Shown: positions 12,345 through 59,900 of the stretch, piece after piece
How positions within the stretch are numbered: position 1 is the first letter of the stretch
How the letters are laid out: the number at the start of each line of letters is the position of its first letter
Assembly (NCBI RefSeq): GCF_026151205.1
Contig: NC_087082.1
Span: forward strand, 8,440,901-8,504,900
From: Bolinopsis microptera
Taxonomy: Eukaryota; Ctenophora; Tentaculata; Lobata; Bolinopsidae
Reading direction: 5' to 3'
DNA: 64,000 nucleotides
Made by a program: the position numbers and the translations under genes
The notes under the pieces: model-generated
The model's database searches: none
What the model was told of the DNA's origin: nothing
Seen by the model: the letters and a program-made list of their open reading frames with translations, nothing else

Positions 12345-13273
12345 TTTTTACTTACTTGATACTTGATAAGGTCTCCTCAATCATTCGAGTGGCCTGCACC
12401 AAGGAATTGCCGCTTATGTCGTATCATTTCTCTCCAGTGCTTGCGATTTCCTGCCAACTCTCGGACCTTATCAAATACAATGTCTGGATCTCCTGTAAAT
12501 GTTATTGCGTCTTCCAGGACACAGGTTCGCCAATTCTTTCTTGGCCGCCCACGTGATCTTCGGCCGTGAGCAGGTATCCAGTCAAGTAGATACTTTGGTA
12601 GCCTGGTGTCCGGCATTCTAGAAACATGTCCAAACCAGCGAAGACGGTTGGCACTGATGTAGGTTATAACCGGGTTTATTCTTGCCCGCTCCAACACTTG
12701 AACATTGCTCGTCCGGTGGAACCACTTAATTCGAAGGATTCTCCTCAAACAGTTTTGATGGAAAACTTCGAAGCGATGTAGTTGCTTTGAAGTAGTGTTC
12801 CAGACTTCGCTTCCATAAAGTAATATTGTTAGAAGTAGAACCGCTGCAACATATATCCGTATTTTGGTGTTAGTTTGGATATTGCGATTCTTCCAAATAT
12901 TACCGAGCTGATTGACTGCTCCTGAGGCTTTCTGGATCCGTGCAGGCAAGTCCCGGTCAATAGTCCCATCACTTGATATAATCGACCCAAGGTAAGTGAA
13001 GTTGCTGACTTGCTGGATAGCCGTGTCTCCTACTGTAATGTCCACCGTTGATGCTTCAGTATACGGCCTCTGTGATGTATTCTTGCCGATGGCCATAACC
13101 TCTGTTTTCTTCGCATTGATTCTGAGGCCAGCCTGAGCCGCATACTTGCATAAAAGATCAGTCGTCTCCTGGAGACCGTCCTTGGTGTTGTCCATGATAG
13201 CCAAATCATCTGCATAGTCAGTATCCAAGACGACTGTATCCTGACCAAAGCTGGTGGTAGCTCTCTGCAGCAC
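12345..13273 (-). mobile_element. 5'-truncated non-LTR retrotransposon (LINE)
   Basis: This is the 3' part of a LINE inserted on the minus strand. It keeps the C-terminal part of a reverse transcriptase (next entry). Its 3' end, just after the stop, is a short imperfect repeat (TATCAAG, TATCAAG, TAAGTA) instead of a poly(A) tract, as in RTE-like and related LINE groups. The 5' side stops abruptly near 13273, typical of incomplete reverse transcription. Confidence 0.8.
12377..13273 (-). CDS. Reverse transcriptase C-terminal fragment of a LINE
   Basis: An open frame of 298 codons with no internal stop starts just before the catalytic YADD box (DTDYADDLAIM at residues about 18-28). It continues through the thumb region (AGLRINAKKTEVM, FTYLGSIISSDG, LLYGSEVWNTT). 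The C-terminal end carries the LRWFGHVSRMP and HGRRSRGRPRKNW motifs common to one large class of animal LINE ORFs. The fingers, the earlier palm motifs and any N-terminal endonuclease are missing, so it cannot be autonomous. The intact frame suggests a relatively young insertion. The first methionine is probably internal to the original protein. Confidence 0.88.
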   Translation of the reverse strand: MLQRATTSFGQDTVVLDTDYADDLAIMDNTKDGLQETTDLLCKYAAQAGLRINAKKTEVMAIGKNTSQRPYTEASTVDITVGDTAIQQVSNFTYLGSIISSDGTIDRDLPARIQKASGAVNQLGNIWKNRNIQTNTKIRIYVAAVLLLTILLYGSEVWNTTSKQLHRFEVFHQNCLRRILRIKWFHRTSNVQVLERARINPVITYISANRLRWFGHVSRMPDTRLPKYLLDWIPAHGRRSRGRPRKNWRTCVLEDAITFTGDPDIVFDKVRELAGNRKHWREMIRHKRQFLGAGHSND

Positions 13274-13399
13274 TGCCGATTTTTAGATATCATTAAAAAT
13301 ATCGTCACAACATCAATAACAAAAGCGTCTAGCAAGGCGGAAGTTTCTTTGGCTCAATTCCAATCCCAAAAACGTGCTAACGTACTGTTGGTCGACAAA

Positions 13400-38401: not shown

Positions 38402-41400
38402 TCAATTCGTTTCAAACCCTTTCCTGCAATCTGACAATTCCATCTTCATACAGTAATCTTTAACACTAATAAACATCAAGTTCACCACCACTTGGATCGC
38501 TATAAGATCTAAACCTAATAGATAACTTTCCTCCGGGCAATCTTCAGATTTAGAGGAACTAATTTTGGAGTCCGTCAAACTAATGCATGTCTCTATCTTA
38601 GGTAAAACCTTCAAGTGTTGACGCTTATCATAATCGGAGTTCGTTTCAAGGACATTTTTAGAACTGGATGTAAACTTAAAGCCGGATTGTTTGAGCTGGA
38701 TTGGACTACAATCCTGTTTCAGTTTAGTGTCAGTACTGTGGATCAAGGGGTTAGGAGTAGGTTTTGAGAGAATTAGTTGTGGTTTGGAGGGAATTAGTTG
38801 TGGTTTGGAGGGAATTAGTTGTGGTTTGGAGGGATGACAGAAGCCGCTGGTCCTTTTCCTTCCAAGGTCGATGATACAGCTTCGTGAATTCATATCATTA
38901 CGAGCAGATTCGTCAACTTTTATTGTGATATCGTTTCTGAAACAAACAAAATAGTGTGAGTATAATTTGTTAAAAGGACAAATTGGGCTGTCTGGCTCCA
39001 AAAATTAGGTCCAAAAGCCGAAAGAAACATTTAACTTGAATTACAATGAGCATTTTAAACGTTAACTCACAAGTCATAAATGTATCTAAGGTTGAACACC
39101 CTTGATAGTTAGTCATATAAGACCACACAGCTAACATTAACACTGTCTAAATAAATACCTGATAGAAGGAATGATGTGGTGACTGCTGATCAGGTGGTTG
39201 AGGAGATAGGATTCTGATCTGAAGACCACTCCACACTCCGAGCAAGTTTGGTTTCGGACCTTCTCGTGGTAGCGTTCATGTCGCTTTAGAGTCATGGAGT
39301 GTTGGAATACACGGCCACATTCCTTGCAACCTAAATCTGAGGAGAGGACCAGGGTTAGGAGGGTTCAGAAATTAACATTTTTGTTTTTGTAGAATCACAT
39401 ATTGTTATTGTATGTACTATTTGTAGAATCACATATTATTATCACAATGCTGGCAAGCATTACCGTCGCCCTTATATTCACAATACTATTTACCCCCTAT
39501 ACTATTATATCCCCTTTATTGTTTTCCAGGCATTAAGACTCATCGAAAGTAGTTCAGCAGGTATATTTAAGTTCAAAACATTCTAATTCAATGTTAAAGA
39601 TGACAGGAATAAGAAATAGTGATATGGAGGTTTTTAAGAAATTTGCGCAAAATACGCGCCAGCATGTTATACGAAATTAGGTAAAAAACCCAAAATCGCC
39701 ATATTCAGGTGCCTTAAAAACCATGTTAAAATTGAGTAAGAGATCTGAAACTTTGCAGGGCGTCTAGACCTTGTCCAAATCGACTGTAAACAAAATTTCA
39801 TGTTTCAGCAGTATCGGCAAGTGGGTTTTCTGGAACCCCTGTTTTACAACAGATTGTCGTGAAGTATATATCACAATGCTGGCAAGCATAACCGTTGCCC
39901 TTATATTCACAACACTATTTACCCCCTATACTATTATATCCCCTTTATTGTTTTCCAGGCATTAAGACTCATCGAAAGTAGTTCAGCAGGTATATTTAAG
40001 TTCAAAACATTCTAATTCAATGTTAAAGATGACAGGAATAAGAAATAGTTATGTGGAGGTTCTTAAGAAATTTGCGCAAAATACGCGCCAGCATGTTATA
40101 CGAAATTAGGTAAAAAACCCAAAATCGCCATATTCAGGTGCCTTAAAAACCATGTTAAAATTAAGTTAGAGATCTGAAACTTTGCAGGGCGTCTAGACCT
40201 CGTCCAAATCGACTGTAAAATTTTTTTCATGTTTCAGCAGTATCGGGAAGTGGGTTTTCTGGAACCCCTGTTTTACAACAGATTGTCGTGAAGTATAGTA
40301 TAGACGCTTTGGCAGTCAATTGGCAGTCAATTGTAGCCTACATTTAAGTGTCCGTAGATTCAAAAGTATAAACGATACAGTCATCTCGAACCACAGGTTT
40401 TAAAGATAATCGTTTCAACTTTAGTTTTCATTATATTTTAAAATAATTTAACGCCATCATCATCACTTGATGACGTCATCAAATTAAGTGTTTTTAAAAC
40501 TTGATTTTTGACAAAGTAAGAACTTTTCAAATCGATTTTACACCATTAAGGAGTAATTTTATTCAAAATCTGAGGACATTTTCATCTTAGATAATTGTTC
40601 AAGCATTCCGAAAATCTACCGGAAAATTTTCCTACCTTGCTCCTTCATAAAGATATTTGCTATTGAAGTTAGTGCTTTTTTGAAGAATAATTTTATAAAA
40701 ACACAAAAGTTGTGAATTAGTATTCTCTGGTGTTGGGCCATCCCTTGGGTTGTGGAGCTCAATTTTGCTTCTTAAAGGTCTAAATTGTGTTATAGGCTAG
40801 TTTTAAAGTTAAAAATCGAAAAGTTGCACACGTGGGGACACGCCCAAATTCATTTAAAATAGCTAAAATCACTAAAAATTTTGATTTTCACGATTTTTAT
40901 CAACTTTGGAGTCCCGTTGTGATCCAAGTTCTTAATGAAATCTTCTGAAACTTTGCATGCTTATCAAACTATATATTAAATACCACTATGCAAAAATTTA
41001 TGGTGATTCAATATTGGATGCGCACGCAACGTCCGCTCAAAGTTTGCACGTGCGAAAGGTGAGAATTTTGCTCATTCGTGATTTCGAATATATTCTGCTT
41101 TCCCACAATATTTAAAATTTAAATGGCATTATATATGAATTTAATGCCAACTTGAATGAGTAAAAAGTGCCATATTCAGTCGGTTATCGACAGATATACC
41201 TACCTAAACACAAGGAAACGTTTTCAAAGGCAGAATTTCGAAATCGTTGAAATTACCTCTTTATTAATGAAGTTTCGACTGTGTAAATTATCCTGACATT
41301 ATAATCAAAAAGAGATGATATTTGACCAAAACCCATAATCATGGGTAGAGTGAACCGCTGCCAGTGTCTCTCTTTTCCAAACAAAAGGAAATGATATTAA

Positions 41401-43920
41401 TTTGAGGAACCGTCCGCAAATGCAAATTGATACCGAGAATGAAATCGGTCGCTCGCTTTTCCCATTCAATAAGCTTTATTACAATTCGTAAGCCGTGAAT
41501 GAATGGGAAAAGCGAGCGACCGATTTCATTCTCGGTATCAATTTGCATTTGCGGACGGTTCCTCAAATTAATATCATTTCCTTTTGTTTGGAAAAGAGAG
41601 ACACTGGCAGCGGTTCACTCTACCCATGATTATGGGTTTTGGTCAAATATGTATATATGTATATATGTATGTATAGACGCTTTTGGCAGTCAATTGTAGC
41701 CTACATTTAAGTGTCCGTAGATCCAAAAGTATAAACGATACAGTCATCTCGAACCACAGGTTTTAAAGATAATCGTTTAAGCTTTAGTTTACATTGTATT
41801 GAAAAATAATTTAACGTCATCATCATCACTTGATGACGTCATCAAATTAAGTGTTTTTAAAACTTAATTTTTGACAAAGTAACAACTTTTCAAATCGATT
41901 TTACACCATTAAGGAGTAATTTTATTCAAAATCTGAGGACATTTTCACCTTAGATAATTGTTCAAGCATTCCGAAAATCTACGGGAAAAGTTTCCTACCT
42001 TGCTCCTTCATAAAGATATTTGCTATTGAAGTTAGTGCTTTTTTGAAGAATAATTTTATAAAAACACAAAAGTTGTGAATTAGTATTCTCTGGTGTTGGG
42101 CCATCCCTTGGGTTGTGGAGCTCAATTTTGCTTCTTAAAGGTCTAAATTGTGTTATAGGCTAGTTTTAAAGTTGAAAATCGAAAAGTTGCACACGTGGGG
42201 ACACGCCCAAATTGATTTAAAATAGCTAAAATCACTAAAAATTGTTATTTTCACGATTTTTTTCAACTTTGGAGTCCCGTAGTGATCCAAGTTCTTTTTG
42301 AAATCTTCTGAAACTTTGCATGCTTATCAAACTATATATTAAATACCACTATGCAAAAATTTACGGTGATTCAATATTGTATGCGCACGCAACGTCCGCT
42401 CAAAGTTTGCACGTGCGAAAGGTGAGAATTTTGCTCATTCGTGATTTCGAATATATTCTGCTTTCCACGATATTTAAATGGCATTATATATGAATTTAAT
42501 GCCAACCTAAATGAGTAAAAAGTGCCATATTCAGTCGGTTATCGACAGATATACCTACCTAAACACAAGGAAAAGTTTTCAAAGGCAGAATATCGAAATC
42601 GTTGAAATTATCTCCTTATTTATAATTATGTTAATGAAGTTTCGACTGTGTAAATTATCCTGACATTATAATCAAAAAGAGATGATATTTGACCAAAACC
42701 CATAATCATGGGTAGAGTGTACCGCTGCCAGTGTCTCTCTTTTCCAAACAAAAGGAAATGATATTAATTTGAGGAACCGTCCGCTAATGCAAAATGATAC
42801 CGAGAATGAAATCGGTCGCTCGCTTTTCCCATTTAATAAGCTTTATTACAATTCGTAAGCCGTGAATGAATGGGAAAAGCGAGCGACCGATTTCATTCTC
42901 GGTATCATTTTGCATTAGCGGACGGTTCCTCAAATTAATATCATTTCCTTTTGTTTGGAAAAGAGAGACACTGGCAGCGGTACACTCTACCCATGATTAT
43001 GGGTTTTGGTCAAATTGTATGTACTGTTTGTAGAATCACATACTATTATTGTATGTACTGTTTGTAGAATCACATATTATTATTGTATGTACTGTTTGTA
43101 GAATCACATATTATTATTGTATGTACTGTTTGTATTCTTCTTGTCTATCACACTGCCCCAAAGACGGCCCAAGAACAACTGCACAACTTTTGCAACGTGT
43201 TTTGGCCTATTGACAGTTGCGCCCCCTTCAGATCTACGACATTGCTCGTATACTTATTTTATCGCTGGATTTTAGAATAATTACTTATGTAATAGAATTA
43301 AAATTACCTGGAGTTGTAGTTTTCAGAATCCCTCTTCTTATCTTGGCGGTTCCATGTTGTCTTTTATACGCCTGCGATAAAACAAATATTATTCACAAAT
43401 TTCGCCCACGTTATTCAGAAACGAGACGTATTCATATAGTTAATTATAATACGTTTGTAAACGAATTATCTTAAGCTTCTAAAAGTAAACGGTAAATTCA
43501 ACAGCTACGCCACGGCTGCAAAATCTCGAGCTTATGATACAACTAAAATGTTATTTTAATTGTAATTTCAAGTTTTTGCGGCCAGCTATTCGGGGCTGTG
43601 ATATATGCTCATCCCTATCCATCCCGCTTAGCCCTTACCCACTACACATTCCTTGTTCCGCTATGTAGGACATTGATAACTTTAAATAAATACAGTAAAA
43701 CAACGTATCTTACCTGCTTGTGGGCTGAGTTGTGACGGCGGAGACGGGTAATATCGGGTAGTACCTTCTGACAGTATTCACACGTCAAATCACGGAAACC
43801 GTCCGCTTCCATATTGGCAAATCTTTCCATATTGGCAAATCCTGGCATATTGGCAAATCTTTCCATATTGGCAAATCCTGACATATTGGCAAATCCTTCC
43901 ATATTGGCAAATCCTGACAT
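38402..43920 (-). CDS. C2H2 zinc-finger protein, three fingers (four exons)
   Basis: Exons, 5' to 3', are 43920-43714, 43371-43308, 39336-39159 and 38936-38402; phases 0, 1, 2 agree at every junction and give about 327 residues. A hexapeptide array (FANMER/FANMSG) fills residues 1-40. Finger 1 (CEYC, 12 residues, HNSAH) is in exon 1. The 64-base second exon encodes AYKRQHGTAKIRRGILKTTT. Fingers 2 (CKEC, 12, HERYH) and 3 (CSEC, 12, HLISSH) sit in exon 3. The C-terminal ~175 residues are S/K-rich with a SKPQLIP repeat and have no known domain. An alternative acceptor 6 bases downstream of 39336 would drop two residues. Nucleic-acid binding is likely from the fingers; targets are unknown. The start is uncertain: the frame is open just upstream of 43920. 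The 3.97-kb intron 43307-39337 contains the hairpin-ended duplications. Confidence 0.8.
38758..38836 (-). repeat. Coding 21-bp repeat (SKPQLIP) in the zinc-finger gene
   Basis: Three to four copies of a 21-base unit encode the heptapeptide SKPQLIP (the last variant SKPQLIL, then SKPTPNP). The unit is a multiple of three and keeps frame, giving a Pro/Lys-rich, probably disordered segment. Confidence 0.85.
39398..39440. repeat. 31-bp minisatellite, left remnant
   Basis: One to two copies of the ATTGTATGTACTRTTTGTAG AATCACATATT unit. The same unit resumes at 43014, on the far side of the duplicated block, which suggests the block inserted into one minisatellite. Confidence 0.8.
39440..40298. 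repeat. Direct tandem duplication of a ~429-base unit
   Basis: Copies 39440-39868 and 39869-40298 differ by few substitutions. Each starts TATCACAATGCTGGCAAGCA and ends with CAACAGATTGTCGTGAAGTA. No conserved open frame is longer than about 60 codons. They lie directly before the 1.35-kb units and may be part of the same mobile structure. Confidence 0.93.
41318..41650. repeat. Perfect 151-bp inverted repeat with 31-nt loop (hairpin 1)
   Basis: The arm 41318-41468 is the exact reverse complement of 41500-41650; the loop is 41469-41499 (ATAAGCTTTATTACAATTCG TAAGCCGTGAA). The arm includes ACCCATAATCATGGGTAGAG and GAAATCGGTCGCTCGCTTTT. The opposing open frames at 41339-41566 and 41499-41699 are simply the two strands of these arms. 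Confidence 0.97.
42687..43015. repeat. 149-bp inverted repeat with 31-nt loop (hairpin 2)
   Basis: The arm 42687-42835 pairs with 42867-43015 with one mismatch, close to the loop. Compared with hairpin 1, three substitutions in the left arm (within AGTGAACC/AGTGTACC, CGCAAATG/CGCTAATG, CAAATTGA/CAAAATGA) are each matched by the complementary change in the right arm. The loop is identical. Confidence 0.97.
43014..43135. repeat. 31-bp minisatellite, right part
   Basis: Three to four copies of ATTGTATGTACTGTTTGTAG AATCACATATT, continuing the array interrupted at 39440. The last copy breaks off at TGTTTGTATTCTTC. Confidence 0.88.
43808..43920 (-). repeat. Coding 18-bp repeat at the zinc-finger protein N-terminus
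   Basis: Six to seven copies of an 18-base unit encode the hexapeptide FANM(E/S/P)(R/G). Units alternate GGATTTGCCAATATG and AGATTTGCCAATATG types. All three frames stay open because the unit is a multiple of three, so the reading frame is chosen by its continuity into finger 1. Confidence 0.88.
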
Positions 43921-46124
43921 CAGAAGGCAAATGTTTAGTATAAAACTCAGAATTAAAACAACGATCCCTAATAGTAATAGTAATACACAAAGTAACGGTT
44001 AAACATAAATCGGACAGTTCACCATCAATATACATTATCATTTGTAAGCTTCTTCGTTGATAGGGCGCGGAAGCAAACTACTGAAACTAATCGAGAATAT
44101 GTAGTAAATATGGGGTCACAGAGACGAGTGCTCATGGGTTCTATCGGTTCACTTGTAAAGTGCCTCATGAGGCTAGTGCAGTGTGTGCGATTGCTTAGTT
44201 TAATAGTTAGCATCGATACGATTATTAAATATCGATATATTCTTCCGCCTTTTGTTTGTGTCAGCAAATGTTATGACCCGATCTGTAAACAATAGATCTA
44301 GAAGTAATTGAGCTATAAACAATAAAACTAGAAGTGTAACACGATAGTTTACGACTATAAACTATAATAAATGTAGAAGTAAAGCCCGACTAAAAACTAT
44401 AAAACAGAAGTTTAATCTTCTGTGACGTGGGACTCGTTATTGCTATGTGATACCTAAGTGTATCCTGCAGGAATGTTATCGCAACGCCAATAAGCTGATA
44501 GCATGTGACACGTCACCAGATCAGGATTGTAAATCACAATTGGCTTCGACAAGGCTAGTAAATAAAGGGTAATGCTTTTATGACACCGTGGTTATTGTGA
44601 AAAGATAACAATGAAGGTATATTTATAATGATTGTCTTATGCTTTTGAACGAACATGATTGAAAGTTGGCACTATGCCTCCAGAGTGCCGCCATAGCGCC
44701 ACGACAGTACCACGAGGGTGCCACGATCAGAGTGCCGCGACAGTGCCATCGGATGTATGACCCTTGGAGGACTTCGCCGCTTCGACGCGCCGCGCAAACT
44801 AGCATTCTTGCTTCGCAACGATCTGGAAGGGTTGACAACGTCAATCAAGTATGACCCAGGCAAGCTTACAGTCGGCACCGACCAATATAACTCAATAAGA
44901 AGAAACAATAAAACTAGAACTTCAAAGTAAAGCCCAACAACCCGGAGTGATGTGCCGGGTGATCACGCTGCAGAGAAATCCCTCACAGAACCTTGTCGAC
45001 TGTATAACAGTGACCCAATGACATGTCAGAGAGGTAATTACATTTCTACTTATAGGCTGGACAGAGGTAGTAATGTGAAAGTTAAGGCGGGTAGTTAGGG
45101 CACTAAAGTGACATGACTTCGATCTAGATTCTAGGTGCTGCGTGACGTGGGTAGATTGCTGGGTGTAAATATGGTGCACGTGTGCTTAGTGCACGTGGGC
45201 GCAGTACACGTGTGATCATGAGAACAAGTGGTTATAATTGCTCCCTGGGGCCACTAAGCTTGCTCAGAACAAAACCTGATGTGTGGCCTAAAAATACAAA
45301 ATCTTAATGAGATTAGAGTAAGGTTATTTAATGAATGGACGAACTAATTGGGTTGGTTCGATTTTAAATTGATTTAGCATATAGTAACTGTGGAACAAGA
45401 ATTGCGACTATTTTTTGAGATGGACCACCGATTTTAATCCGACACTGCTAGTTGCTACCACTTTAAATTATTATGTAAAATGTTCCCCTCAAATCAGTCT
45501 ATCGTCCACAACATCAGCTGGTTAATAAAATATCACTAAGGTAAACAAACAAACAAAGCAATAATCAAATAGATTTAAGTGGAAGATGACGGCAATTAAC
45601 TTCAGAATATGTAAGCGAACCGGCAACAACTTCCTCAACATTCAACGCTGGTCGCTGAACACTAGCTAGTGGGAATACTCATGTATTTGGTTCCTCAAAC
45701 TGATCAAACTGTGGGCATTATTTAAACTTTTGAAGGGGGCCTCATTGAAATTTTAAATTCAAACGTTACCACGAACACAAAGGAGTAAAAACATTTTGCG
45801 ACAAATTAATATTAATATTATGTGTAAGTCATTGAATTTCAATTACTTACACATTACTTAAATGGGTAAATGTAAAATGCTGTGGAGCAAACTCTCCTAT
45901 ATCTTGTTAATTTATCGTAACAATTTAATAGCAAAATTCGAACTTTTCTCTCTCGACGTTTTGGGACTAATATAAAGGGACTGAGTGTTTCTATAGTGCT
46001 ATTAATACAGGTAACAGTTAAAGCTTAAAGCTTTAAAGGGCGCCACGTTTGTCGTTTCTATTGCACAGTATTACTATTAATATGTATAATACATACATCA
46101 AAAACAGGACACTATTTATGAAAC
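43921..46124. other. Gene-free interval upstream of the zinc-finger gene
   Basis: It should contain the promoter and any untranslated first exon of the zinc-finger gene. GTGCC-rich imperfect repeats lie at 44680-44760. A cluster of GTGCACGTG words lies at 45174-45212. No exon was recognised; the overlapping short frames at 44622-44930 follow the GC-rich repeat. Confidence 0.5.
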
Positions 46125-53900: not shown

Positions 53901-56900
53901 CAAGTGACTCAAGAAAGAAAACGACATAATTATTTATAAAATTATGCATCCAAAAGGAAAAAATATAAATGTCCGCTGAGTTATTTGAGCCAATCCCTCC
54001 TAATCAATATGAAAAGGAATGTCATAGAAAACAACACGTGGTAAGATCAGAATTATTTAAATTAAGAGCAAGTTTCTTAACATGAACCCAAACTGTGCAT
54101 CACATATAGGCGTCGTCCACCAGAACGACTTCCATGCGCTGCCTCCCGAACCCATGATGAGTCCATCCGCCAGTTAGTCTCGCGTGAGGAAATGGAGTAA
54201 TGTTATCCCGTTCCAGTGATGATTTCAGTAAGGCGAACTGGTTGAAGTACTCAGGATCCTCCCTGTAACCTCCAAACGCCCGGGAGTAGATTTTATAGTC
54301 AGGATATTCACTGACCCACACTTTCTTGGTAGTGGATGCCGGAGGGTTGTTCTGGAACTGTTGAGGAATGTAAACGGACATTACAGCGTTCACAACTTTG
54401 GAGTTCTGGTCGAGCCAGTATGTCTCGACGACGGGTGAGAGGAAGGACATCTTTTCTCCACGATCGTTGTTAGCTCCACTGCTGTAGCGGTACAGGCGAA
54501 TGTACGCCTCTCTTAACCCCTCTGGTCTGTCCAGGTCGACCGTTGTAACGGTCCAGTTTGCACGTGCAAGCAGTCTCGTTTCATACCCGCATCCTGAAGA
54601 CTCGAGTTTCTCAAACACCGGGCACTCCTTCTTGTTGCAAATTTGTTCAACCGGCTTCGGTTTGTGACGCTTCAGCAGATGATGCTGTCCATTAGGAGCA
54701 GTATTAGTTTCGTTTGCAGCGTTTTCGTAAAGATCTTCGTTATCTGGATCAGTCAGGTACTCCTCGCATTCCTTGTAGCCATCCGCCTCTTCACGGGTAA
54801 AATTCCCTTGTGCCTCTTCTTCTATGCTGAAATGTTGCCTGTACTTTGGAGACTTGTACCGGTGCGCTTCAACAAGTTTGAGAAGTGAAACAGTCAGTAG
54901 TCCTAGCACCACGAATAGTTGAGACATTTTAGTCAATCTAGATATTATGTATATTATTAAGTAAATCAATGTTGAAACAATTAAGTATAACATAAATCAT
55001 TTATCGCGAATAGATAACCGTACAGAGAATTTAATTTACAGATGTCAAGTGTTAGGGAAAGTTATAGAAAAGTAGCAAAGTGTTTCTCTTAACACACAAA
55101 AAAGGAGACCGTACTTCAATAATACAGTGCAATTATACGAATTCTTTGGACACTGCTTCTTTTATACCGTTGAGAACTTGTTTGAGCCTAATAGTACGTT
55201 GCCTAACCATAATCGAACGATGCAAAATATGAAAGTAAAAGTTCAGGAAATTGAATAAAATTGGGTTCGTTCTTCATCGAGGAAAATTCGATTTAGTGGC
55301 TAAAGAGGGGGAAAACTTAATTTAACGGATACTTGTATATTGTATAATTAGGCTCAAAGCGATAAGCTCTCTTCTGATTATATTTCTATCCTCTTAATCA
55401 GAGAAATAAGAATTTTCACCCGAATTTGTCTTGATCTGTCCCCAATCCCCATGACGTATATGGCTTGGGAGTATTTTAATTGTTTTTGCACTTTATCCCT
55501 CCCTGATATCAAGACACCATTTACTTGAGAGATAACAGTTATCAGTTGCCGGTCATTATTGAAGTCCCAGACGGAAAATGATAAAACAAAACAAAAAGTC
55601 CTCAATAGGAAATTAAACTTCCAGCTCAGTACTAAATAAGAACTGTACTTACTAGGAGCAGGTCGTTTAGAGCGCATGCTCTTCCTAACTAGTACTAAAT
55701 AAGAACTGTACTTACTAGGAGCAGGTCGTTTAGAGCGCATGCTCTTCCTAACTAGTACTAAATAAGAACTGTACTTACTAGAAGCAGGTCGTTTAGAGCG
55801 CATGCTCTTCCTAGCTAGTACTAAATAAGAACTGTACTTACTAGGAGCAGGTCGTTTAGAGCGCATGCTCTTCCTAACTAGTACTAAATAAGAACTGTAC
55901 TTACTAGGAGCAGGTCGTTTAGAGCGCATGCTCTTCCTAACTAGTACTAAATAAGAACTGTACTTACTAGAAGCAGGTCGTTTAGAGCGCATGCTCTTCC
56001 TAACTAGTACTAAATAAGAACTGTACTTACTAGAAGCAGGTCGTTTAGAGCGCATGCTCTTCCTAAATAGTACTAAATAAGAACTGTACTTACTAGGAGC
56101 AGGTCGTTTAGAGCGCATGCTCTTCCTAACTAGTACTAAATAAGAACTGTACTTACTAAATAAGAACTGTACTTACTAGAAGCAGGTCGTTTAGAGCGCA
56201 TGCTCTTCCTAAATAGTACTAAATAAGAACTGTACTTACTAGGAGCAGGTAGTTTAGAGCGCATGCTCTTCCTAAATAGTACTAAATAAGAACTGTACTT
56301 ACTAGGAGCAGGTCGTTTAGAGCGCATGCTCTTCCTAACTAGTACTAAATAAGAACTGTACTTACTAGGAGCAGGTCGTTTAGAGCGCATGCTCTTCCTA
56401 ACTAGTACTAAATAAGAACTGTACTTACTAGGAGCAGGTCGTTTAGAGCGCATGCTCTTCCTAACTAGTACTAAATAAGAACTGTACTTACTAGAAGCAG
56501 GTCGTTTAGAGCGCATGCTCTTCCTAACTAGTACTAAATAAGAACTGTACTTACTAGAAGCAGGTCGTTTAGAGCGCATGCTCTTCCTAAATAGTACTAA
56601 ATAAGAACTGTACTTACTAGGAGCAGGTCGTTTAGAGCGCATGCTCTTCCTAACTAGTACTAAATAAGAACTGTACTTACTAAATAAGAACTGTACTTAC
56701 TAGAAGCAGGTCGTTTAGAGCGCATGCTCTTCCTAAATAGTACTAAATAAGAACTGTACTTACTAGGAGCAGGTAGTTTAGAGCGCATGCTCTTCCTAAA
56801 TAGTACTAAATAAGAACTGTACTTACTAGAAGCAGGTCGTTTAGAGCGCATGCTCTTCCTAACTAGTACTAAATAAGAACTGTACTTACTAAATAAGAAC

Positions 56901-59900
56901 TGTACTTACTAGGAGCAGGCCGTTTAGAGCGCATGCTCTTCCTAACACGTCTGGTTGACGTTCTCTTGTGCTGGTTAGACCGTGGTACCAAGCTGCTCGC
57001 ATCTGGTGTTGAAATTTTGGGGTATGTTTATTCTTGAATTTATCATGGCTTAACCAAGAGAAACAGAAAACACAGAGAATTCGTTTTCAGGGAGAGATAG
57101 AACCTACTAAGAACCTACTAGCTTTTGATGTCTGTTCTGGATCAAGAGCAGGAGGGTTTTCTATCAGATCTTCTAGCAGAAGATCTCCCTCTACCTGGTA
57201 CGATAAAGTTATTAAGTTTAAACAACTATACTGCTATTTTTCTAGGACTCACATCTCACAGTCAAGAAAAACTCTGAAAAGTTACACGACTATCATGCAT
57301 AGAAGGAAAAAACGCCAAAAGATGAGCACTCTAAAAATACTTGAAGCTAGCCTCCTATCTCTGAGATACCTTTTTAAGAAACTGGGCGGGACCAAGCCCT
57401 TTCTTTCCACCGACGGTAATGTACCACCATCCGTCGTGAGACATAAGTTCCACTGTTGTTATCTCACCTGTGCAATCCAGTGTTAACAAGGGTACAGGTT
57501 AGATAGCAAGTTCAATCGTAAATTTGTGTATTTTGTGGTTTTCGAAGGGGATTTATTTTATTATTTTTGTGTGTAGATAATAACGTGCTCTTAAAAAAAA
57601 AGAATTTTCAAGTGATGTTTTATACATTTTTGTAAATATTTTACCTTTGGAGAACGATACTTCATCTCGACTAGAAGCTTTAAAATTAGAAACACACTGA
57701 TAGAAGCTACCTGAAATGAAGAAGGGTAGTATCGCATAAAAATACTGATATAATCCTGTATCTGGTTACAAACACATGCACAACTGAGCTCTCATCAATC
57801 GTTGTGAAACGCTCAGTCGGCCATTATCAGGTCGATTTGATTCTTGGGACGATATTTCCATTTAACACAACATGGCAACAAACAATCAACTTCCATATCG
57901 GGCCCATAACAAAAGAAAAATCAGCGACTGGTTGCACTAAGCCTCATAGAGTCTCAGAGCAGTGAATACGTTGGAACGTGTTCAGCATCTGATTCGTTCT
58001 TGTGACTCACACCTAACATTTCGAGGGATACCCCGGCCCTGCCCTCATAGCCCCAGCGTGTGGCTCTTTATTGACACTATGAATCAGCTATATTATAACG
58101 CTCTTGCAACTAATGTAAACGTATGTTAGCGTATGGGCAGCAAATTGCGGAACACGATGTTATCATTGCAGAAAATCAGCGCGATTAGTTTTGTAATTGC
58201 ACCGACTATGTTTTCGGTTGTTCTCATAAAACTGCGATTACTTTTGGTTATAACATCCTAGTCCCCAGAGGTCTCCCTGACAACAGCTCAGATGCGTACT
58301 AGTAACGAAGTTGCACTCTGTATATTTTATAAAGATGCCCTGTTTATAAAGACGATCAAGGATGAAGCCTTCAAGTGAACAAAATTAAAGACAGGTCTCA
58401 AAATATATCGGATGTTTCATATTGTTCTCATTATGACAATTGTTGGTCAAATTGATAAGAGAGTTGTCTTAACTGACTTTCGTACACTTAATTTTGCTCA
58501 TTTATATTGATTACTGAAGTTTGTAATGTAAACTTAGGATTCTTGCACGTTGAATATGGTGAAGCCCTTAAAGTGGACAAAATTAAAGATACTGAAGCCT
58601 TCGCCAAAATTAACCACCTTTATATTGTAAAACGGGTGTATCACTTTGAGTAACTCTGAACTCCAGTACTATATACCTACTTGAAACAAATTAAACTGTT
58701 GTAGGTTTATGACATACCAAGACGCGCACCGAGTTGGACTCGTCGACGGTCTTGAAACAAATATTTTACGAGTATCACCCGTTAAATGAAGCTGTAACTG
58801 ACGGTTAGTTCAGCCACTGAGCTAGGTTGCACTCTATTTTCTGGTTGCGGCCAAACTGCAAGCGGCGGTCATGCACACCATGTGGTTCCGGGAAAACGCG
58901 CGTGCGCGATGCTTCTCCAATGTCTTCGCGTGTTACGTAAAGTAGCCATAACAAGTAACCAGTTCGCAAGGTCACATCAATTCAAGTTGCTTCTTCTTTT
59001 CACCAATCAAGACAGAAGACGTTTCCCTGAAATGTGTATGCGATTTTGTATGCGATTTGCGAGCCGCACGTACGTTAAAATATTTATATTTGTAGAATTT
59101 ATTACGGTAACCCTTCAGAAGTCAAAAAAATCAAGATAAGAGATTGCAGACCAATTCGATCTATATTTTTTTCAAAAAGTTTCAATTTATTTTTCTTTAC
59201 TTAGTTAAAGAAGCTGAAATAACCAACGATTTAATGTTTAGACCTATAATATGTAAAACAATGATAGAAACCTGTCATGTCACTACACAATTTACGTGCA
59301 ATGTTTTCATAGCTTTGTTTACCTAGGCAACTTATACTGAAGTGTCAAACATTACTACAGTTTGTGTAGACATTACGTAAGCATCCGGAGACCAATTCAA
59401 CGGTGAACAGGTCAGAAATTGAGACTTCATGGTCTGAATAGTCTAAACTGAACCAAACTCGATTATAAACACAATACCAACATAATACCGAATAGACGTG
59501 GGTAAAAGATGGGATGTCGTGCAAGTTTTTTTTTAAGAAGATGGACCAATTAGATTGTTATCTTGCAGAATCAATCAGTCAAGTCCCAATAAGCCAAAAT
59601 TGCAGTCCCATGTCAAAACAAACCTGTTTCAGAGTATAATTAGAGAGTATAACTTATAAGTATTAATATTAAAAATTAACTGTGTATCATACAAATTTTG
59701 ATATAGACGATATATTGATAGACAGTGTATGACGATATACAGTGTGATTACCCTACTACAGTAAAAGCCCGATTTACCGCGGGTTTGGGAGAAAGAAAAG
59801 AGCAGCAGCAAATCGGGGTGCGGTAAATCGGTGCACGGTAAATCAGGGCGCGGTAAATCGGGGCGCGGTAAATTGGGGCGCGGTAAATGGGAGCACAGTA

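Follow-up and report, generated by a model that had tools for sequence, protein, structure and literature searches.

An abundant family of non-coding, Helitron-like elements in the genome of Bolinopsis microptera ends in a giant hairpin with arms of about 150 bp, and the two arms have been homogenised with each other across the family. The loop between the arms is found in both orientations, which is a new observation of this work. The elements have defined ends, go in between A and T without duplicating the target and nest within each other. We consider fold-back template switching in the hairpin of a Helitron-like element to be the best explanation of these features, and probably the right one. 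The analysis started from two copies in a window of 64,000 nucleotides (contig NC_087082.1, positions 8,440,901 to 8,504,900), which is the whole stretch of DNA that was analysed, and was extended to related copies elsewhere in the same genome.

Two nested elements and their hairpins

The outer of the two elements in the window has a total length of 1796 bp and is divided into a left piece (39442..39870, plus strand), composed of module A (422 bp, starting TCACAATGCTGGC) and the start of a TA-rich spacer, and a right piece (41648..43014, plus strand) with the remaining spacer, module B and hairpin 2. The inner element (39871..41647, plus strand) is complete at 1777 bp and carries module A, spacer, module B and hairpin 1. 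Both start TCACAATG and end GGTCAAA, and a small 5' hairpin is also present in the element. When 39871-41647 is removed the resulting 100-nt junction is matched exactly in locus L027, and an 80-nt version of it is also found in L022 and L037; when 39442-43014 is removed the resulting 34-nt stretch has two exact occurrences in the adjoining 34-bp tandem array, which lies to the left (39386..39441) and to the right (43015..43151) of the outer insertion. These exact empty sites show that both insertions occurred between A and T without target duplication, and that the 1777-bp element sits inside the TA-rich spacer of the 1796-bp element. What the initial annotation had described as two tandem units of about 1.35 kb are in fact parts of two complete nested elements of about 1.8 kb, and a tandem duplication of the 1.35-kb unit is ruled out, since A-A-B-B is a nested order for which an exact empty site exists.

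Hairpin 1 has two arms of 151 bp (41318..41468 and 41500..41650, plus strand) with no mismatches and a 31-nt loop in forward orientation (41469..41499, plus strand); the final three bases of its 3' arm lie past the end of the element, in the flanking TA-rich spacer. Hairpin 2 has arms of 149 bp (42687..42835 and 42867..43015, plus strand), where the final base of the 3' arm may be that of the target site, and a 31-nt loop of the same sequence (42836..42866, plus strand). Its arms have a single mismatch, at stem position 148 adjoining the loop, and this position is also an unmatched difference between the two hairpins. At stem positions 34, 99 and 108 the hairpins differ as well, each time with the change present in both arms. 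The arm lengths, the single mismatch, the identical loops and the three matched differences had all been annotated initially and are confirmed. As single DNA strands the hairpins have folding energies of -196 (hairpin 1) and -192 kcal/mol (hairpin 2). Inverted repeats of about 150 bp without a mismatch lie far outside what chance would produce, and hairpins of this structure were seen again at many other loci.

The insertions plausibly lie inside an intron, as had been proposed. A C2H2 zinc-finger exon is present on one side (39140-39364, minus strand; Pfam E 1.7e-9), but the second exon is represented only by a weak C2H2 hint near 43.7 kb on the other side of the insertions (E 0.06). An open frame adjoining this hint contains 18-bp tandem repeats (43789-43932). 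Elsewhere in the window, all on the minus strand, there are an RVT_1 reverse transcriptase fragment, probably of a LINE-type element (12380-13282; E 4.2e-7), a SOUL heme-binding domain (54103-54996; E 3.3e-21) and long open frames made of tandem repeats that have KYSSYLVLVRKSMRSKRPAPS as their unit (55381-56905).

Matched arms and inverted loops across the family

Searches of the element's own genome (264.65 Mb) returned at least 176 matches to the unit (from the best 40 of 2008 first-look candidates scored), at least 79 to one arm (best 40 of 953 candidates) and at least 59 to the 422-bp module A (best 40 of 1674 candidates). Module A precedes module B in most mapped loci, and the modules mostly follow a nested-bracket order such as A A B B or A [B A reversed] B, with partial pieces also present in some loci. 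The region C1:8643000-8656000 (L019 and L020) holds a deep nest of these elements, some in one orientation and some in the other. Element starts in the sampled loci are preceded by A in 53 of 55 cases, this number being what is left of 66 matches after 10 internal to module A and one unrelated match were sorted out by reading, and GGTCAAA ends are followed by T in 84 of 87 cases, a list which also takes in the palindrome's inner mirror ends.

The window and the sampled loci provided 95 two-armed hairpins, which became 94 after one overlap duplicate was taken out; 19 single or partial arms were left out of the set. Since 62 of the 94 come from unit-similar and 32 from arm-similar places, the sample is biased toward relatives of the window copies. 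Module-B sequence, detected with a short marker, lies beside 93 of the 95 hairpins, the exceptions being L015_4946, which is the middle unit of an inverted triplication, and L063_70; the idea that the hairpin is an independent element is for this reason not supported. Loop sizes fall at about 31, 36-38, 62-72 and 183-224 nt (L015_4017, L019_4156, L039_3873, L013_1860 and others), and the occurrence of long loops on more diverged bodies suggests that the loop of 31 nt may have arisen by shortening. At L019 4697-7195 one long-loop hairpin is common to two convergent elements, as if two hairpins had fused.

Across the 139 filled columns of the core stem the 94 hairpins contain 258 matched and 60 unmatched variant cells, which are counts of copies and not of events. 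Only eight of the 60 unmatched cells are common to two or more hairpins and the other 52 are not shared. When 3' arms were dealt to other hairpins, 200 such shuffles gave a mean of 455 unmatched cells (range 392-511). Alternative matched pairs, each in at least two hairpins and with transversions among them, were found in 19 columns. The situation is reversed next to the loop, where six columns hold two matched as against 101 unmatched cells, 98 of the latter being shared, so that homogenisation ends sharply about six bases from the loop. At the outer stem base (columns 3-6) one matched cell stands against eight unmatched ones, none of them shared. Raw pairwise counts on the first 63 hairpins look much weaker (10,161 matched against 8,552 unmatched) because loop-proximal and flank columns are included in them, and, many copies having identical or near-identical arms, the partner arm is nearest or tied nearest in just 12 of 63 hairpins. 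Arm-to-arm copying across the family is supported by these data. The initial annotation had called for arm-to-arm conversion, a fold-back copying step or selection for pairing; one of the first two is indeed needed, as the family-wide matching is far beyond chance. It had also named frequent unmatched differences in other copies as the result which would speak against it, and such differences were found only in the six loop-proximal columns, among private changes and at the outer base of the stem.

The timing of this copying was addressed with 45 young copies. Their bodies show 132 singleton changes in 44,183 sites and their arms 14 unmatched and six private matched changes in 12,418 sites, where about 37 unmatched changes are expected at the body rate. 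The unmatched changes number 9 and 5 in the two arms (of the 14, one is strictly speaking not private); singletons in non-overlapping 149-bp windows of the body number 16-24, with a sliding-window minimum of 8. Among the six private matched changes, one (column 80) is found in more than one of the 94 hairpins of the larger set. These figures hint that arm-to-arm copying continues after insertion, but some arm changes may predate insertion.

Orientation of the loop was determined relative to the adjoining module B. Of 82 short-loop hairpins, 40 are forward, 40 are reverse and two are without orientation; these equal numbers do not estimate the population, the unit query itself having had a forward loop, and by sample there are 43 forward, 18 reverse and one undetermined in the unit-based set and 8 forward and 24 reverse in the arm-based set. 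Among 12 long-loop hairpins 11 were called forward and one was without a call, two of the forward calls being doubtful: L019_5676, first called reversed, is common to two convergent elements and ambiguous, and the body of L027_4746 is aberrant. Forward loops number 12 and reverse loops 13 in the commonest arm haplotype (25 hairpins), and other arm haplotypes occur in a single orientation (11 forward; 8 reverse; 5 reverse; 5 reverse; 5 forward; 5 forward). In standard-type hairpins the loop-proximal mismatch switches arm together with the reversal of the loop (L036_1918, L045_1624). Among the 40 reverse hairpins one equals a forward hairpin exactly when reverse-complemented and 13 come within 2 nt of such identity; for 5 of the 40 there was no equally long forward hairpin to compare. 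Without reverse-complementing, even the nearest forward hairpin is different at 24 positions or more. Loci L047 and L081 have opposite loops on bodies which differ at one of 719 sites. At least eight orientation changes are needed on a tree of 58 bodies, many forks of which are weak, and some of these changes may represent hairpin exchange between copies, since one class of reverse-type hairpins occurs on bodies inside a forward-type clade. The hairpins L039_2488, L041_1198 and L042_1414 are of a type which disagrees with that of their body on the tree, again suggesting exchange.

At C3:5791499-5793995 (L015 4500-6001 and L095 1-995) two convergent elements face each other, and in the assembly the 447 bp between them appears three times in +,-,+ order (100, 99.55 and 99.55% identical to the query); both facing hairpins are repeated there once more, inverted, between the triplicated segments. 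About 110 bp of the 447 bp is part of another dispersed repeat. This arrangement fits template switching at inverted repeats, a process to which triplications of this shape have been ascribed (ODIRA-type; PMC10766183), but it could also be an assembly error.

Origin of the matched arms

For yeast genes with short arms it has been described that template switching homogenises the arms and inverts the spacers, and that it is recurrent and reversible (PMC8604942), and stems of RNA genes have been reported to be maintained by template switching with loop inversions (PMC8794818). Arm homogenisation and loop inversion are both present in our family, which therefore matches the published signature. 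In this element the hairpin region would become single-stranded, either as part of a rolling-circle intermediate or where a replication fork passes, and the growing strand would jump from arm to arm and copy the other arm. A switch inside one folded strand would place a new mutation in both arms or erase it, and a switch that starts on the partner strand, in the first arm, would also turn the loop around. The bases next to the loop would escape, being synthesised before the switch or left unpaired. A homogenised version could then spread by transposition, with private mutations accumulating after insertion. By analogy with Helraiser, where a 19-bp palindrome acts as terminator of transposition (PMC4778049), the hairpin may be the 3' terminator of this element.

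It should be noted that chromosomal recombination between the arms would leave nearly the same marks, with non-crossover conversion evening out the arms and crossover inverting the loop, and we regard it as the main rival even if an unlikely one. It accounts for homogenisation and inversion alike, and the deficit of unmatched private arm changes hints at post-insertion copying, as it would predict; the test on private changes does not, however, fix the timing, and one of the six matched changes was the shared one in column 80. The arms are just 150 bp long and 31 bp apart, and a stop of homogenisation about six bases from the loop is simpler with a folded intermediate, but neither point is decisive. 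The outer stem base, with eight unmatched cells to one matched, the lack of a mobilising protein among the sequences searched and the non-canonical 3' end also weigh against template switching in a Helitron-like element, as do the far shorter arms of the published cases, the chance that some orientation changes stem from hairpin exchange and a possible misassembly of the triplication. A different possibility, which we consider improbable, is that the hairpin is re-copied and sometimes inverted in each transposition cycle, by fold-back priming or hairpin transfer in a single-stranded intermediate. That shared changes are matched and many private ones are not (52 of the 60 unmatched core cells), as if matching took place mainly in the moving lineage, is in line with this, as is the extension of the stem to the 3' terminus of the element. 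Against it, unmatched private arm changes are below the prediction from the body rate, and inversion in every cycle is ruled out by the arm haplotypes fixed for one orientation (11 forward to none reverse, 8 reverse to none forward, and others).

Selection to keep the arms paired, through compensatory changes in an RNA or DNA hairpin, would also yield matched changes, transversions included, but intermediates, wobble pairs among them, should then be common and shared, and the shared unmatched cells in the core are just eight beside 258 matched ones; since it also leaves loop inversion unexplained, selection, one of the options in the initial annotation, is very improbable and is not needed. 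Least credible of all is an assembly or library artefact, in which the second arm would derive from fold-back chimeric reads. Such errors are typical of perfect inverted repeats and of places like the triplication at C3:5.79 Mb, but the 94 hairpins are spread over many loci, with shared subfamily changes, inherited loop-proximal mismatches and differing outer flanks.

Template switching stays the preferred reading, and the hairpin might in addition be a working part of the transposition cycle, in which the folded 3' hairpin primes or switches, re-copies an arm and occasionally transmits the inverted form. We hold this to be quite unlikely; if true, the family would be an animal example of rolling-circle transposition in a variant primed by a hairpin, and its flip/flop ends would be reminiscent of those of parvoviruses. 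The hairpin has been replicated many times in one genome because it sits inside a transposon family, and these natural replicates of one long inverted repeat make homogenisation, its stop at the loop, inversion and perhaps inverted triplication countable, so that how often and in which direction strands switch at long hairpins can be measured outside the laboratory. The family also serves as a warning that a perfectly covarying stem need not imply selection on RNA.

Relation to known systems

The canonical Helitron starts with TC, inserts between A and T without duplication and ends in CTRR, with a palindrome of 16-20 nt about 11 nt upstream (PMC4067079). Both window elements have the 5' TC and the A|T insertion; the CTRR end is absent, the elements ending GGTCAAA|T, and so is a short palindrome some 11 nt from that end, in place of which the stem of 149-151 bp reaches the end. 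Insertion was into A|T in both empty sites and not into TT as in Helentrons and HINEs. Foldback or terminal-inverted-repeat transposons do not fit either, both arms being at the 3' end and target duplication being absent. The element is thus regarded as Helitron-like in the way it works and is not filed as a Helitron. The genome contains 41 Helitron_like_N (Rep) matches, many of them in large open frames, and six Rep loci with 1.5-kb flanks, together with the 3' side of two of these, showed no clear similarity to the family; a 36-bp match of 86% to module B near a Rep locus (E 1.5e-5) was judged to be chance. At C6:16068364-16075400 (L097 and L102) one Helitron gene has a 1466-codon open frame, after which come a short hairpin and CTAG, the arrangement expected of a canonical Helitron; related copies are found elsewhere.

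In the literature consulted, mostly titles and the openings of abstracts, no Helitron with such a hairpin and no spacer inversion in a transposon were recognised. The statement in the initial annotation that no element class is known with this layout holds for the 3' end, which differs from what is described; for the rest the element is Helitron-like, and homogenisation of arms by template switching is published (PMC8604942, PMC8794818). With the canonical Helitron (PMC4067079) and Helraiser (PMC4778049) it shares the 5' TC, the A|T insertion without duplication and a 3' hairpin, but the hairpin of Helraiser is much shorter, and the CAAA end, the stem of about 150 bp running to the last base and the failure to find a coding partner set it apart from the canonical Helitron. 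Helentrons, HINEs and DINE-1 (PMC4067079) and the Helitron2-like FoHeli (PMC5148889) resemble it in being non-coding, in their internal microsatellite, in hairpins near both ends and in self-insertion; it differs from them by inserting into A|T instead of TT and by a 3' hairpin many times longer, and subterminal inverted repeats of the Helentron type were not noticed on inspection by eye. The triplication resembles ODIRA-type events (PMC10766183) in its +,-,+ segment with inverted repeats at the junctions, and differs in being one locus of 447 bp bordered by transposon hairpins, perhaps through assembly error. With template switching at inverted repeats (PMC8604942) the family has in common that the arms are alike, the spacer is inverted and the process is recurrent and runs in both directions. 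The footprint of strand switching at inverted repeats is known, and it is the scale which is unusually large, with arms of 150 bp here against about 7-16 bp in the published cases (PMC8604942), within a Helitron-like element that has a hairpin of about 150 bp as its 3' end.
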